Assembly (NCBI RefSeq): GCF_011250645.1
Contig: NZ_JAANNO010000001.1
Location: 103,196-167,195, forward strand
From: Motilibacter aurantiacus
GTDB taxonomy: Bacteria > Actinomycetota > Actinomycetes > Motilibacterales > Motilibacteraceae
DNA: 64,000 nucleotides
Direction of reading: 5' to 3'
Under the pieces are notes generated by a model. It ran no database searches, had not been told where the DNA came from, and saw only the letters and a list, made by a program, of their open reading frames with translations. Of the stretch, positions 10,522-56,070 are shown in pieces. The translations under genes and the position numbers were made by a program. Numbering within the stretch: the first letter of the stretch is position 1; every line of letters begins with the position of its first letter.

Positions 10522-11177
10522 CAGGCGATCCGGTAGCCCGCGCCGGGCAGTGTCTCGATGAGCGGCGGGGGGCCGAGCTTCTTGCGCAGGGTCATCACCG
10601 TGACGCGCACGACGCCGGTGAAGGGGTCCGCGTTCTCGTCCCAGACCTTCTCCAGCAGGCGCTCCGCGCTCACGACCGACCCGTCGGCCCGCAGCAGCTC
10701 CTCCAGCACCCCGAACTCCTTGCGGCCCAGCCCCAGCCAGCGCCCGTCCCGGTACGCCTCGAGCCGGCCGGGCTCCAGCCGCACGCCGTGCCGCTGCAGC
10801 ACCGGTGGCACGGCGGGCGCGGTCCGCCGGGCGAGCGCCCGGCAGCGTGCGACGAGCTCGGCGAACGCGAAGGGCTTGGGCAGGTAGTCGTCCGCGCCGA
10901 GGGCCAGCCCGGCCACGCGGTCCTCGACCCCTGCCGACGCGGTCAGCATCAGCACGCGTGCGGTGGCCCCGGTCGCCACCAGCTGCCGGCACACCTCGTC
11001 GCCGTGCACTGCGGGCAGGTCGCGGTCGAGCACGACGACGTCGTACTCGTTGACCCCCGCCCGCTCCAGCCCGGCAGCGCCGTCATAGGCCACGTCCACC
11101 GCCATCCCCGCGCGGCGCAGCCCGAGCGCGAGCGCGTCGGCCAGGACGCGCTCGTCCTCGACCACGAGCACCCGCAT
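10521..11177 (-). CDS. OmpR/PhoB-family response regulator
   Basis: This 218-residue protein has a receiver domain with acidic pocket E7-D8, phospho-acceptor D51 (in YDVVVLDRDLP), T in MLTAS and K in DDYLPKPF. A winged-helix trans_reg_C domain follows, ending GPPPLIETLPGAGYRIA. It is coupled to the kinase downstream. About 25-45 bp upstream of its start lie two GTGAAGCC repeats spaced 11 bp, the spacing expected for OmpR-family dimers, so autoregulation together with control of the divergent efflux operon is likely. Confidence 0.93.
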   Translation of the reverse strand: MRVLVVEDERVLADALALGLRRAGMAVDVAYDGAAGLERAGVNEYDVVVLDRDLPAVHGDEVCRQLVATGATARVLMLTASAGVEDRVAGLALGADDYLPKPFAFAELVARCRALARRTAPAVPPVLQRHGVRLEPGRLEAYRDGRWLGLGRKEFGVLEELLRADGSVVSAERLLEKVWDENADPFTGVVRVTVMTLRKKLGPPPLIETLPGAGYRIA

Positions 11178-11200: not shown

Positions 11201-11219
11201 GTGAAGCCGGCGTGAAGCC
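11201..11219. promoter_or_regulatory. Candidate response-regulator binding site (11-bp direct repeats)
   Basis: GTGAAGCC occurs at 11201-11208 and 11212-11219, one helical turn apart, in the 127-bp gap between the regulator gene and the divergent efflux operon. OmpR-family regulators bind tandem direct repeats of this spacing. The assignment rests on arrangement only. Confidence 0.4.
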
Positions 11220-51228: not shown

Positions 51229-53574
51229 ATGGCCACTTCTGCCGACAGCACGCCCTCGCCGGGCCTGAGCCGTCGCGCCCTGCTCGGCGCAGCCCTGGTG
51301 ACGCCGGCGGCCGCCGCGCTCCCCACCGTCGTGGCGCCCACGGCTGCGCACGCGGACGGCGCCCCCTACGGCCGGGTCGACCCGGAGAGCCCGCGGTTCA
51401 CGCTCGCCGTGCTGCCCGACACGCAGTACCTCTTCGACCACGACGCGTCGGACCCGACGCCGCTGTCGGCGACGTTCCACTACCTGCTGAAGCAGCGCAA
51501 GGACGACAACATCGTCTTCATGACGCACCTCGGTGACGTCACCGAGCACGGCACGCAGGACGAGATCAGCCTCGCTGCGAAGACCTTCGACGCGGGGCTG
51601 TCGAACCAGATGCCCTACAGCGTCCTCGGCGGCAACCACGACGTCTCCGGTGACGACCAGCGCGGCAACACCCCGTACCTGCAGGCGTTCGGCCCGCAGC
51701 GCTACGCGGGCATGCCGACCTTCCGCGGCGCCTCCCCCGACGGCTACAACAGCTACCACGTGGTCCGCGCGGCCGGCCGCGACTGGCTGGTCCTCGCCCT
51801 GGACTGGCGGCTCTCGGCCAAGGGCGTCGCCTGGGCGCAGGGCGTCATCGACGCCAACAAGACGCTCCCGGTCATCCTCACGACCCACGACCTCGTCGGC
51901 TCGGTCGGGACGGCGCCGGCCGGCCAGCCCACCCCCGCCGGGCTGTCGGGCAACGGGCAGTACCTCTGGGACAACCTGATCCGCAAGAACGACCAGGTCT
52001 TCCTCACCCTCAACGGCCACTACTGGCCCCCTGCGCGGACCGTGCTCACGAACGACCGGGGCAACGCCGTGCACGCGCACATCACGAACTACCAGGACCG
52101 CTACTACGGCGGCGCCGGCATGATCCGGCTCTACCACTTCGACCTGGCCCGCGGCGTCATCGACGTCGAGACGATCGCGCCGTGGTTCCTCAACCGCAAC
52201 CCCGACAAGCGCGCCCCGCTCGAGGCCGAGACGATCGAGCTGACCGGCATCGACGACCGCTTCAGCATCGAGATCGACTTCGCCGAGCGCTTCGACAGCT
52301 TCGCCCCGGTGGTCGTCCCGGCCCCGCGCCCGGCGAGCGCCGTCATGCCGCGCGGCACGCTCGCGTACTGGCGGTTCGACGCCGCGGGCATGGCCGGCGC
52401 GGGGACCGTCGGCGCCCAGGTCGCCGAGGGCGTGCGCGTCAAGGACCTCACCGGCAACGGCAACGACCTGGTCTCCCGCTACATCGGGCAGGTCGGCACC
52501 CCCTTCGGCATCAAGGGGAACATCGCTTCGCGCGTCGTTGCGATCACGGCCAGCGGTGAGAACGCGCCGAACGAGGTCGCCGCGAACCTCAACGACCTCG
52601 ACGGCGGCAGCAAGTGGCTGGTCCGCACCAGCACGGGCTGGGTGCAGTACCGCCTCGACTCGGCGATCACGGTCGTCGGCTACGCGCTGACGAGCGGCAA
52701 CGACTCCCCCGGCCGCGACCCGCGCGACTGGGCCCTGCAGGGCTCGAACAACGGCAGCACGTGGACCACCCTGGACACCCGGTCCGGCCAGACGTTCGCC
52801 TCCCGAGGGCTCACCAGGCAGTACGACATCGCGACCCCGGGGCCGTACTCCTACTACCGGCTCACCGTCACCGCGAACAACGGCCAGCCGCTGACCCAGC
52901 TCGCCGAGCTGCAGCTGACGGACGACCTCAACGGCCCGACCCCGCCCGGCACCTCGATCCTCAGCTGGTCCGACGACCACATGAGCGGCTCGCCGTCGCA
53001 CGCCAGCCTCCGCTTCAACGGCGGGCAGAGCCCCAACCGCGGCGCGATCCTCGAGTCCGTGCCCGGCGCGAGGATCAGCACGGAGAAGTTCCTCTCGGGC
53101 TTCACCATCGAGGCCTTCCTCAAGCTGCCCAAGCCCTTCGTCGGCAGCCACGCCTGGATGGGCATCCTCAGCTGGGAGGGCAACAACGGCCGCACCAGCG
53201 GCTACACGCCCAACGAGCCGCCGTGCAGCCTGAACCTCTCCGGCGAGCGCTTCCTGCAGTTCGTGCTCTACCCGGAGCTCGACGTGGCCAACAACCCGAC
53301 GCACTGGAGCCACGCACTGCCGGTCGGCGAGTGGCAGCACGTGGCCGTCGTCAACGACGGCAGGAGCTCGGTGGTCTACGTCAACGGCTCGAGGATCGCC
53401 CGCAACCCCACGGCCAGCGCCCGCGGCATCCAGACGCTCGGCAAGCCGTTCGTGATCGGCGCCACGCAGTCCAACGAGACCTTCGGCCAGGGCTTCTACG
53501 GCTTCATCGGCGACGTGCGGGTCAGCACCCGCGCCCTGCAGCCGAAGGAGTTCCTCAAGCCGTACGACCGCTGA
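51229..53574 (+). CDS. Tat-exported metallophosphoesterase with discoidin-like domain inside a LamG domain
   Basis: A 781-residue precursor with a Tat signal (LSRRALLGAALVTPAAAA). Residues about 55-330 are a calcineurin-like phosphoesterase: LPDTQYLF, THLGDVTEHG, VLGGNHDVS, LTTHDLVGS and LNGHYWPPA; the last motif is GHYW rather than GHxH. A LamG jelly-roll starts near residue 378 (GTLAYWRFDAAG, KDLTGNGNDL), is interrupted by a discoidin (F5/8C)-like module at about 430-565 (GGSKWLVRTSTGWVQYRL, YALTSGNDSPGRDPRDW) and resumes with WSDDHMSGSPSHASLRFNGG to the end. ATG 51229 has GGAG 6 bp upstream. Likely an extracellular phosphodiesterase bound to carbohydrate. Confidence 0.85.
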   Translation: MATSADSTPSPGLSRRALLGAALVTPAAAALPTVVAPTAAHADGAPYGRVDPESPRFTLAVLPDTQYLFDHDASDPTPLSATFHYLLKQRKDDNIVFMTHLGDVTEHGTQDEISLAAKTFDAGLSNQMPYSVLGGNHDVSGDDQRGNTPYLQAFGPQRYAGMPTFRGASPDGYNSYHVVRAAGRDWLVLALDWRLSAKGVAWAQGVIDANKTLPVILTTHDLVGSVGTAPAGQPTPAGLSGNGQYLWDNLIRKNDQVFLTLNGHYWPPARTVLTNDRGNAVHAHITNYQDRYYGGAGMIRLYHFDLARGVIDVETIAPWFLNRNPDKRAPLEAETIELTGIDDRFSIEIDFAERFDSFAPVVVPAPRPASAVMPRGTLAYWRFDAAGMAGAGTVGAQVAEGVRVKDLTGNGNDLVSRYIGQVGTPFGIKGNIASRVVAITASGENAPNEVAANLNDLDGGSKWLVRTSTGWVQYRLDSAITVVGYALTSGNDSPGRDPRDWALQGSNNGSTWTTLDTRSGQTFASRGLTRQYDIATPGPYSYYRLTVTANNGQPLTQLAELQLTDDLNGPTPPGTSILSWSDDHMSGSPSHASLRFNGGQSPNRGAILESVPGARISTEKFLSGFTIEAFLKLPKPFVGSHAWMGILSWEGNNGRTSGYTPNEPPCSLNLSGERFLQFVLYPELDVANNPTHWSHALPVGEWQHVAVVNDGRSSVVYVNGSRIARNPTASARGIQTLGKPFVIGATQSNETFGQGFYGFIGDVRVSTRALQPKEFLKPYDR

Positions 53575-53628: not shown

Positions 53629-53661
53629 GTTCATCCGGACTTCATCCGCCGCTTCACTGTT
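53629..53661 (+). promoter_or_regulatory. PHO-box-like direct repeats before the PHP-domain gene
   Basis: GTTCATCCGGA, CTTCATCCGCC and CTTCACTGTTC place TTCA at 53630, 53641 and 53653, a spacing of 11 and 12. This resembles PhoP sites (GTTCACC repeats every 11 nt) in actinomycetes. It is 74 bp upstream of the PHP gene start. Confidence 0.5.
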
Positions 53662-53734: not shown

Positions 53735-55429
53735 ATGGGCCACACCCACGGGCACGACCACCACCATCACGACCACGCGCACCCCACGGGCTCCGAGGTG
53801 CCCGAGGCCGTCGACACCTCCGTCCCGGACTCCGAGCTGAGCCCGCGCGACCTGTCCCGTCGCAAGCTGCTGCGCAACGCCGGCCTGCTCGGCGCGGGTG
53901 CCGGTGCGATGAGCGTGTTCGGCCCGGGCGTCGGCGCGGCCGCGGCCGCCTCCGGCGGCGACGTCGCCCCGGTCGCCGACGACGAGGTCGTCTACCTCGC
54001 CGGCGACCACCACATCCACACCCAGTTCAGCTCCGACGCGATGTACCGGGTCGAGGACCAGGCCCGGCGCGCCGCGGAGTACGGCCTGGACTGGATGGTC
54101 GTCACCGACCACGGCAGCGTCACGCACGCGCGCATCGGGGTGGACAAGGTCAACCCCGAGATCGTGGCCGCCCGCGAGGCCAACCCGCGGCAGCTGATCT
54201 TCCAGGGCCTGGAGTGGAACATCCCCGCCGCCGAGCACGGCACGGTGTTCGTGGCGCCGGGCCCGAACGAGGTCGCGGTCCTCAAGCAGTTCGAGAGCGA
54301 CTTCGACGGGTCCGTCTCCCCCGCGCCGCGCAACGAGGCGCTGGCCATCGCCGGCATCAACTGGATGGCGCAGCAGAAGGCGGCCGGCCGTGTCGAGGAC
54401 GCGATCATGTTCGCCAACCACCCGGCACGCCAGGGCATCGACTCGCCGCACGAGATCCGCGGGTGGCGGGACGCCTCGCCCGGGACGTTCGTCGGCTTCG
54501 AGGGGGCACCGGGGCACCAGGCCGCCACGCTGCAGCGGCCGAACGCCGGCGCCCGCGGGCTCTACGGCGGCGCCCCCCGCGCGGACAGCTTCCCCGGCTA
54601 CCCGCTCGAGTCCTACCGCACCCACGGCGGCTTCGACTGGATGACCGCGACGGTGGGCGGCCTGTGGGACTCGCTGCTCGCGGAGGGCAGGCCGTGGTGG
54701 ATCACGGCGAACTCCGACTCGCACTCGGTCTTCGAGGACCGGTTGGTGCGAGGCTCCTTCGCTCCCGGCGAGACCTTCGAGACGCTCGGGCACTACCCCG
54801 ACCCGGTCGACTCCGGCGAGCCGCAGCGCAACCGCGCCGACTTCTGGCCCGGCTACTACAGCCGCACCCATGTCGGGGTGTCCAAGTACGGCTACCTCGA
54901 CGTCATGGCGGGCCTGCGCGCCGGCAACGTGTGGGTCGACCACGGGCACCTGATCGACGGCATCGACGCGAAGCTGCGACTGCGCGGCAGCGTGCAGCGC
55001 AGCGCGACGCTCGGCAGCACGCTCACCGTGCCGCGGGGCTCTCGCGTCGACCTCGAGGTGACGATCGACCTGGCCACGCGGCCCAACCTCGCTGGCGAAC
55101 TGCCCCGCCTGCGCCGGGTGGACGCGATCGCCGGCACGGTCACCGGCCCGGTGGCCGACCGCGACACGTTCACCACGAACAACACTCGCGTGGTGGAGCA
55201 GTTCGAGATCAGCCAGGCCTCCGGCCGGGTCTTCCTGTCGATGCGCTTCCGCCCGGTGGAGCAGCCGTTCTACGTCCGCCTGCGCGGCACCGACGCCAAC
55301 CGCACCGCGGTCGGCCTGCGCGGTGCGGCGATCGACCCGGTCGGCCCCGCGCAGGACGTTCCCGGTGTCGGCAGCCCGTGGGAGGACCTCTGGTTCTACA
55401 CCAACCCGATCTTCGTCAACGTCACGTGA
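53735..55429 (+). CDS. Tat-exported PHP-domain phosphoesterase with His-rich N-terminus
   Basis: A 564-residue precursor. The ATG at 53735, after AAGGAG, encodes MGHTHGHDHHHHDHAHP, ten histidines in 15 residues, ahead of an acidic linker and a Tat signal (LSRRKLLRNAGLLGAGAGAM, near residues 41-60). The PHP domain runs from about residue 88: GDHHIHTQFSSDA, MVVTDHGSVTH, FANHPARQG and ITANSDSHSVFED provide the metal ligands. The C-terminal half (about 410-560) is a beta domain. A trinuclear metal phosphoesterase outside the cell is expected. The His tail would be removed or kept cytoplasmic after Tat cleavage. It is coupled to the next gene by a 4-bp overlap. Confidence 0.87.
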   Translation: MGHTHGHDHHHHDHAHPTGSEVPEAVDTSVPDSELSPRDLSRRKLLRNAGLLGAGAGAMSVFGPGVGAAAAASGGDVAPVADDEVVYLAGDHHIHTQFSSDAMYRVEDQARRAAEYGLDWMVVTDHGSVTHARIGVDKVNPEIVAAREANPRQLIFQGLEWNIPAAEHGTVFVAPGPNEVAVLKQFESDFDGSVSPAPRNEALAIAGINWMAQQKAAGRVEDAIMFANHPARQGIDSPHEIRGWRDASPGTFVGFEGAPGHQAATLQRPNAGARGLYGGAPRADSFPGYPLESYRTHGGFDWMTATVGGLWDSLLAEGRPWWITANSDSHSVFEDRLVRGSFAPGETFETLGHYPDPVDSGEPQRNRADFWPGYYSRTHVGVSKYGYLDVMAGLRAGNVWVDHGHLIDGIDAKLRLRGSVQRSATLGSTLTVPRGSRVDLEVTIDLATRPNLAGELPRLRRVDAIAGTVTGPVADRDTFTTNNTRVVEQFEISQASGRVFLSMRFRPVEQPFYVRLRGTDANRTAVGLRGAAIDPVGPAQDVPGVGSPWEDLWFYTNPIFVNVT

Positions 55430-56070
55430 CGAGCCGTCCGGTGGCCACCGGCCGGCCGGCGCTCGCGCCGGCCGGCCGGATAGTGGTGGGAGCCAGCGCG
55501 CTGCACGCGGACCGGCACCTCGCCGAGCACCTGCTCGAGGGCCTGCTGGGCGCCGTCGCGGCAACGGGCGCGGGTGCCGCCGGAGCCGTGGCGTGCACGC
55601 ACTTGGTGGCCGCGCCGCATCGACACGAGGCCGTGTCCGTCGAGGTCGGCGCCCGCCCCGGTCCGGCGGTCGACGCCGTGGCCCTCGCCGAACGGCTGGG
55701 GCCGGAGGCCGGCGTCGTCGTGGTGGACAGCTCGGGGGCCCGGCAGGCCGCAGGGCCGGCCGCGCAGGTGGCCGCCGCGCTGGAAGCGGCGAGCGCCCAC
55801 GCGACGCGATCCGGCGGGCGCGCGGTCGTCTTCCCCGGCCAGGAGTCGGTCACCGGCGACATGCCGGTCTCCGAGCTGCTCGCCCTCACCGCCATCGATC
55901 GCGTCCGCAGCAGCCAGGGGGCGTACGCGCCCGAGGCCGTCGTCGTCACCCGCGGCTACGTGCGGCCGCAGTACGCCGACGGCCGGCTCGTGCTCCTCTG
56001 CGAGCACGCCGACCCCACCCGGCTGCTCCCGTGGGAGATCGAGAACCCGGCCGTCTGCGGAGGCCACTGA
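55426..56070 (+). CDS. Unrecognised protein coupled to the PHP phosphoesterase
   Basis: A 214-residue protein starting at GTG 55426, overlapping the PHP stop (GTGA). It has no signal peptide or membrane helix. Visible parts: RIVVGASALHADRHLAEHLL, a His-rich patch CTHLVAAPHRHEAVSV, alternating strands and helices (VVVVDSSGARQAAG, AVVFPGQESVTGDMPVSELL) and the ending LPWEIENPAVCGGH, with a Cys and His that could be metal ligands. The alpha/beta pattern suggests a Rossmann-like or enzyme fold. I do not recognise it. Coupling to an exported metalloenzyme suggests a metal-loading or regulatory role. Confidence 0.6.
   Translation: MTSRPVATGRPALAPAGRIVVGASALHADRHLAEHLLEGLLGAVAATGAGAAGAVACTHLVAAPHRHEAVSVEVGARPGPAVDAVALAERLGPEAGVVVVDSSGARQAAGPAAQVAAALEAASAHATRSGGRAVVFPGQESVTGDMPVSELLALTAIDRVRSSQGAYAPEAVVVTRGYVRPQYADGRLVLLCEHADPTRLLPWEIENPAVCGGH

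Follow-up and report, generated by a model that had tools for sequence, protein, structure and literature searches.

In Motilibacter aurantiacus, a gene for a PHP-type metallohydrolase with a Tat-type signal overlaps a second, unannotated gene and lies behind a PHO box; this operon partner and the PHO control of the PHP gene are our main new results. The enzyme's precursor carries a histidine-rich tail ahead of its twin-arginine signal, an observation made in the original prediction that is here confirmed and strengthened, and its interpretation as a metal-loading device is partly supported. We propose, with a probability of roughly 45%, that the tail and the partner act as a cytosolic module that handles or proofreads the metal of a phosphate-scavenging PHP metalloenzyme, loading metal or holding the precursor until it is metallated. 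Such a module would most simply account for the features of this locus: a conserved His tail on the cytosolic side, a co-encoded protein that ends in Cys/His, and an enzyme that depends on metal and has to fold ahead of Tat export. Within the window (i.e., the whole stretch of 64,000 nucleotides that was analysed), the first gene shows the following features:

53735-55429, plus strand: PHP gene, an open reading frame of 564 aa
53720-53725, plus strand: Shine-Dalgarno sequence AAGGAG, spaced 9 from the ATG at 53735 (from the sequence and a start scan)
53735-53785, plus strand: histidine tail, residues 1-17, MGHTHGHDHHHHDHAHP (from the translation, homologue composition and a pLDDT below 50)
53786-53857, plus strand: pre-RR linker, residues 18-41, with an SVPDSELSP core, kept in tailed homologues
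53858-53863, plus strand: twin arginine R42-R43 (SRRKLL), both residues invariant in 35 sequences
53990-54949, plus strand: PHP metallohydrolase domain, residues about 86-405 (PF02811, NF038032, structure matches and candidate ligands)
54950-55426, plus strand: tentative C-terminal beta-sandwich-like domain, residues about 406-564 (Ig-like and Wzt-type matches, Z about 8)

The place of the tail within the protein depends on the start site. The ATG at 53735 is preceded by AAGGAG, and the in-frame alternatives are poor or lie past the twin arginine: a GTG at residue 22 lacks a Shine-Dalgarno sequence, and an ATG at residue 59 falls inside the hydrophobic core, beyond the RR. A start 3' of the His run would have taken the run out of the protein; on sequence evidence it is rejected, since no ribosome site is found at such a position and homologues keep the tail. 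The motif SRRKLLRN (residues 41-48) is followed by a hydrophobic core and an AxA-type cleavage region reaching to about residue 73, so that with SRRxxL and its core the protein has the sequence hallmarks of a predicted Tat substrate.

That the enzyme has a PHP domain was borne out by a PF02811 match of 34.2 bits (Pfam cut-off 26.4). Its model (mean pLDDT 84.2) gave Z scores of 19.4 against 3e38 and 19.0 against 2anu, both of them PHP phosphoesterases, and nine candidate metal ligands (H93, H95, D101, H126, E160, H168, H229, D328 and H330) were invariant in 35 of 35 aligned homologues, tailed and tail-less. We take these nine to correspond to the canonical PHP set (HxH, H/D, H, E, H, H, DxH) of PHP structures. 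In signature, fold and about nine metal ligands, the protein thus belongs to the PHP superfamily. It also matched the CehA/McbA model NF038032 over its full length (E 2.4e-18), as did all 35 aligned homologues (best 1.1e-21); however, its 66.6 bits fall below the curated cut-off of 80, and the protein is accordingly best described as a predicted relative of the CehA/McbA metallohydrolases outside their curated membership, from which it further differs by its extended His tail and linker.

Homologues were drawn from genome contigs and from the same order, class and phylum, and a quick maximum-likelihood tree was built from the mature parts of 77 rows, leaving out the tail. The proposed comparison of homologue N-termini for His clusters before the RR found them clade by clade: at least 5 His precede the RR in 49 of the 77 rows and are wanting in 28. 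The tailed rows comprise the entire orthologue clade (40/40, each member with at least 6 His ahead of the RR), a second clade (8/8; Modestobacter, Lentzea and genome G004) and one Chloroflexi MAG. On the tree the tail label requires 3 changes as against 23 with shuffled labels, a comparison that asks solely about clustering. Among the tail-less rows is L002, a paralogue that the Motilibacter genome itself encodes (53% identity), along with paralogues from Streptomyces. Shortened His segments occur in two of the rows that fall under the threshold (L083, MCEGHSHHHDQ; L081, MCRDGSHDHDH). Four homologues (L004, L006, L036 and L068) carry an additional short His cluster on the mature side, directly past the signal peptide.

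Among 50 distinct proteins with at least 4 His, the tail segment is 9-34 residues long with a median of 10 His, and its composition (H 0.53, G 0.13, D 0.11) nearly excludes Lys and Arg. Sequence and length vary while composition is kept, as would be expected if metal binding were selected. Position 2 is a small residue in 49 of 50 tails and position 3 is His in 41 of 50. Methionine is removed by methionine aminopeptidase before small residues, and NH2-X-His is a known Cu/Ni-binding start; since position 2 is small and His follows, Met removal would expose NH2-X-His in most tails. Tails of genus g39 (L057-L065) begin MCHT or MCHS, and eight proteins of this genus thus have Cys at position 2. 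In the precursor model the tail is disordered (pLDDT below 50). A cytosolic metal role for the tail, as had been predicted, thus fits its composition, its Met-small-His start, its modelled disorder and the Cys/His end of the partner described below.

The same composition admits a role without metal, in which a His/Asp/Gly-rich tail nearly free of Lys and Arg tunes the Tat n-region in its charge, its response to pH or its binding to the membrane. The n-regions of tailed proteins are indeed 26-63 residues long vs. 3-33 in tail-less ones; however, targeting or solubility gives no reason why His should be favoured among polar residues, why tails start with X-His, why some have Cys at position 2 or why the partner has a Cys/His end, and tail-less paralogues have a related linker (WADPSVxPxxLDxQGxSRR) on its own. 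We consider this explanation improbable. The presence of the linker without the tail also makes it unlikely that the tail is a mere spacer.

An effect at the nucleotide level, whether a His codon run that controls translation (through a slow start or His-tRNA sensing) or functionless repeat slippage, would draw on the ability of CAC-rich repeats to expand and on the greater frequency of CAT in tails (9.5%; 450 CAC, 47 CAT) than elsewhere (3.1%). We judge it highly improbable, as the tail persists over deep divergence, His3 is positional, the association with the partner would go unexplained, and the mixed CAC/CAT codons indicate that the tail is not a pure microsatellite. HxHxHxH-coding sites number 84 in the genome vs. 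61 in a reversed control, and the PHP tail exceeds chance occurrence. Judged by eye, the other clear HxHxHxH runs in the genome belong to metal-transporter-like proteins or the GroEL C-terminus, and no second His run before a twin-arginine signal was present among the genome's HxHxHxH sites. Resemblance to the metal-buffering tails of GroEL and metal transporters might suggest that the PHP tail is a general metal buffer, or a Cu/Zn/Ni-protective appendage, unrelated to the PHP site, with cleaved signals leaving the tail in the cytosol or membrane; 13 tailed loci without a partner agree with this. However, a generic buffer would need no partner, and the tail is confined to one enzyme family, specific clades and a specific partner, so we regard buffering as very unlikely.

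Metal handling remains our preferred reading of the tail, and the gene's control and its neighbour bear on it further. Upstream of the PHP gene lies a candidate regulatory site:

53629-53661, plus strand: PHO box, with 11-nt direct repeats GTTCATCCGGA / CTTCATCCGCC, then GCTTCACTGTT (p=0.01 against dinucleotide shuffles)

The spacing TTCA-N7-TTCA occurred upstream of 15 of 76 homologues vs. 0.08 expected, these sequences being related rather than independent, and alternative spacings (N5-N12 except 7) gave 0 or 1 occurrences among the 76. Within the genome, TTCAY-N6-TTCAY was found at four sites and at none in a reversed control; the four lie 5' of the PHP gene, PstS (TIGR00975), a PhoX phosphatase (PF05787) and an OmpR-type response regulator. 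Because PHO-box sites are shared with PstS, PhoX and 15 of 76 homologues, the PHP gene very likely belongs to the PhoP regulon. It shares Tat export, in its own case predicted, with PhoX and PhoD, the Tat phosphatases of the Pho regulon, and its PHO-box pattern with the PhoX of its own genome; however, those enzymes are of families other than PHP, and the PhoX of this genome shows no His tail. Since some tail-less homologues also have a PHO box (L031, L033, L034 and L074), the box does not explain the tail. Zur-type control was considered and rejected, the pattern TGANAANNNNTTNTCA being present in none of the homologue upstreams.

Two further loci in the window were also recorded. The gene directly upstream (51229-53571, plus strand) encodes a calcineurin-like metallophosphoesterase of Tat type that contains F5/8C and laminin-G domains, and has a half PHO-box unit, GTTCACCCGGA, in single copy on its 5' side. 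The PHO-box-like site of the OmpR-type response regulator, the last of the four listed above (11202-11217, minus strand), stands about 25 bases 5' of the regulator gene (10524-11177, minus strand), whose best match, VanR-O, is below cut-off.

Downstream, the PHP gene overlaps the partner gene:

55426-56070, plus strand: partner gene, GTG start in a 4-nt overlap with the PHP stop (GTGA), 214 aa, TiaS-TCKD-like fold
56056-56067, plus strand: C-terminal CGGH of the partner, with C211 and H214 invariant in 14 sequences and CCxxH in most orthologues

Homologues of the partner follow tailed genes directly and in the same orientation, in most cases overlapping them by 4 nt. Among rows with enough flanking sequence, counting at least 4 His as a tail, 36 had both tail and partner, 13 a tail without a partner and 27 neither; none had a partner without a tail, i.e., an adjacent partner was seen at 0 of 27 tail-less loci. 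On the tree, two independent pairs were informative and none was contrary (sign test, p 0.5). The association is consistent but, because just two independent pairs are informative, it is not statistically beyond shared ancestry. A locus found later in another class (G647) supports it: behind a tailed homologue that has MGQDHQHGHDHDHHHGRQD lies a partner gene, overlapping it in the same way, whose protein ends DCGKDH. No partner was detected at E<=1e-5 in the genomes of genus g39, and these together with the 13 tailed loci indicate that the tail can serve without a partner; as speculation, the Cys at position 2 of the g39 tails could compensate for the missing partner. No conserved neighbour other than the partner was seen in 11 loci inspected.

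By sequence, the partner had no significant match in Pfam, NCBIfam or the PDB. Its model (pLDDT 87.6) placed five TiaS structures (3u02, 4rvz, 5xob, 3amu and 3amt) at the top of the VIA matches with Z 8.8-9.8 (3u02, Z 9.8), and unrelated matches started at 8.1 and dropped below 8; the Foldseek match to TiaS was weak (3amu, E 0.058). The model therefore predicts a TiaS-TCKD-like fold. The IDDTD motif is absent from linked partners, which have GASAL, GVDAG or GLDNG in its place, while distant relatives keep it and weakly match methanogenesis marker 11 (TIGR03280, 2.1e-5) and NF040849 (1e-4); since IDDTD-type relatives match methanogenesis marker 11 and TiaS models, the family is tied to TCKD by sequence too. 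Among the relatives are actinobacterial IDDTD-type proteins (L199-L202, L218, L219, L220 and L224), some of which match methanogenesis marker 11 and TiaS weakly. The predicted fold is common to the partner, the TiaS TCKD and methanogenesis marker 11, but in contrast to TiaS the partner lacks IDDTD, consists of one short protein with no counterpart of the remaining TiaS domains, and carries an extra Cys/His C-terminus. No signal peptide was seen in the partner, which would be cytosolic and is probably not catalytic. The family as a whole (55426-56070; L003-L069 and L213) is unannotated and coupled to tailed PHP genes.

Linked partners terminate with CCxxH or CGGH, or with something close to these, apart from one copy that is cut short (L046), and most have H35. 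In the protein of the window this terminus is modelled as disordered (pLDDT below 50). In seven unlinked relatives from genus g37, H35 is replaced by Leu or Gly and the C-terminal Cys is missing. However, a divergent unlinked relative beside a pdxT-like gene (L205:3142-3720, minus strand), possibly a remnant, ends DCGGHD, and this counts against the Cys/His end as a trait of linked proteins only.

TorD and DmsD are operon-encoded Tat proofreading chaperones (REMPs). The partner is likewise encoded with its presumed substrate, on the same strand and with a 4-nt overlap in most linked loci, but it differs in its TiaS-TCKD-like fold; TiaS structures were the top matches of its model among the families listed. 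This layout, resembling pairs of Tat substrate and chaperone, could also be that of an export gate or inhibitor, in which binding of tail and partner, possibly via a shared metal, masks the signal or silences the phosphoesterase in the cytosol, sparing cytosolic phosphoesters until release at the right metal or folding state, so that metal is a switch and not a cargo. The 4-nt overlap suggests matched synthesis, the IDDTD kept by distant relatives is lost, and the linker beside the RR is modelled at a pLDDT of about 70-84 from residue 21, as if docking. From this one precursor model the linker may rest on the enzyme, but docking then has the pLDDT of a single model as its basis, and homologues with Tat signals but neither tail nor partner manage without a gate. 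We consider gating unlikely.

Bacterial Cu,Zn-SOD (SodC) has a His-rich N-terminal metal-binding region (Battistoni 2001, as summarized in PMC13151041), and the Tat-exported oxidase CjMCO has two additional Cu in each protomer owing to a His-rich N-terminal region (PMC13151041). These proteins and the PHP protein are alike in having a flexible His-rich N-terminus on a metalloenzyme; however, the region in CjMCO follows the signal and is retained on the mature protein, whereas the PHP tail stands ahead of the RR, on the cytosolic side, and is expected to be lost. SlyD, in which a His-rich domain that binds nickel can be present, provides a case of a metal-binding chaperone able to bind Tat signal peptides (PMC11198818); like the REMPs, it offers a parallel to the proposed system, as a protein of the cytosol that is dedicated to a Tat precursor or binds metal. 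Within the journals covered, the literature searches turned up no account of a His-rich segment placed before the RR of a Tat signal.

In the metal-handling model, then, PhoP would express the two genes as an operon during phosphate starvation. The first would yield a PHP/CehA-McbA-like metallohydrolase that is exported folded by Tat and probably obtains phosphate by scavenging organic esters; in the cytosol, its precursor would present an exposed, flexible His tail, followed by the conserved linker and then the twin arginine. The second would yield the TCKD-fold cytosolic protein with its flexible Cys/His C-terminus. Both metal-ligand termini would most likely cooperate during folding of the precursor: the tail, helped by the partner in loci that have one, would capture a transition metal and pass it to the PHP site or, alternatively, the precursor would be held back until the site is correctly metallated, much as by operon-encoded Tat proofreading chaperones. 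After translocation, signal and tail would be cut off together, as expected for a Tat signal. More specifically, we tentatively entertain a two-tailed metal relay, in which a TiaS-like fold was taken over to serve this one enzyme, either as its metallochaperone or as a proofreader that depends on metal, and its Cys/His end passes metal to, or checks it on, the disposable His tail ahead of the RR. Counting against the module, a His-rich tail would favour Zn, Ni or Cu over the Mn/Fe of many PHP enzymes.

Two parts of the original prediction need revision. The tail had been thought to supply the metals that the PHP site needs, but this does not stand as a general requirement: since tail-less Tat-type homologues, including the paralogue in the same genome, keep all candidate ligands, the tail is, on the alignment, not generally required for building the site. 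The existence of tail-less paralogues argues instead that it improves metallation, be it in which metal is taken, in how fast, or in how metal is supplied when phosphate is short. Likewise, an intramolecular device is too narrow a description, given the coupled partner gene and the PHO box.

For the question of how Tat-exported metalloenzymes come by the right metal before export, a conserved and presumably removable His tail with a dedicated partner is a genetically simple case, for which the tail-less paralogues of the same genomes are natural controls. For two families annotated solely as PHP/CehA-McbA-like and hypothetical, these results provide a likely role and regulon, and the tail and its partner suggest an undescribed route by which metal is loaded or checked before export.
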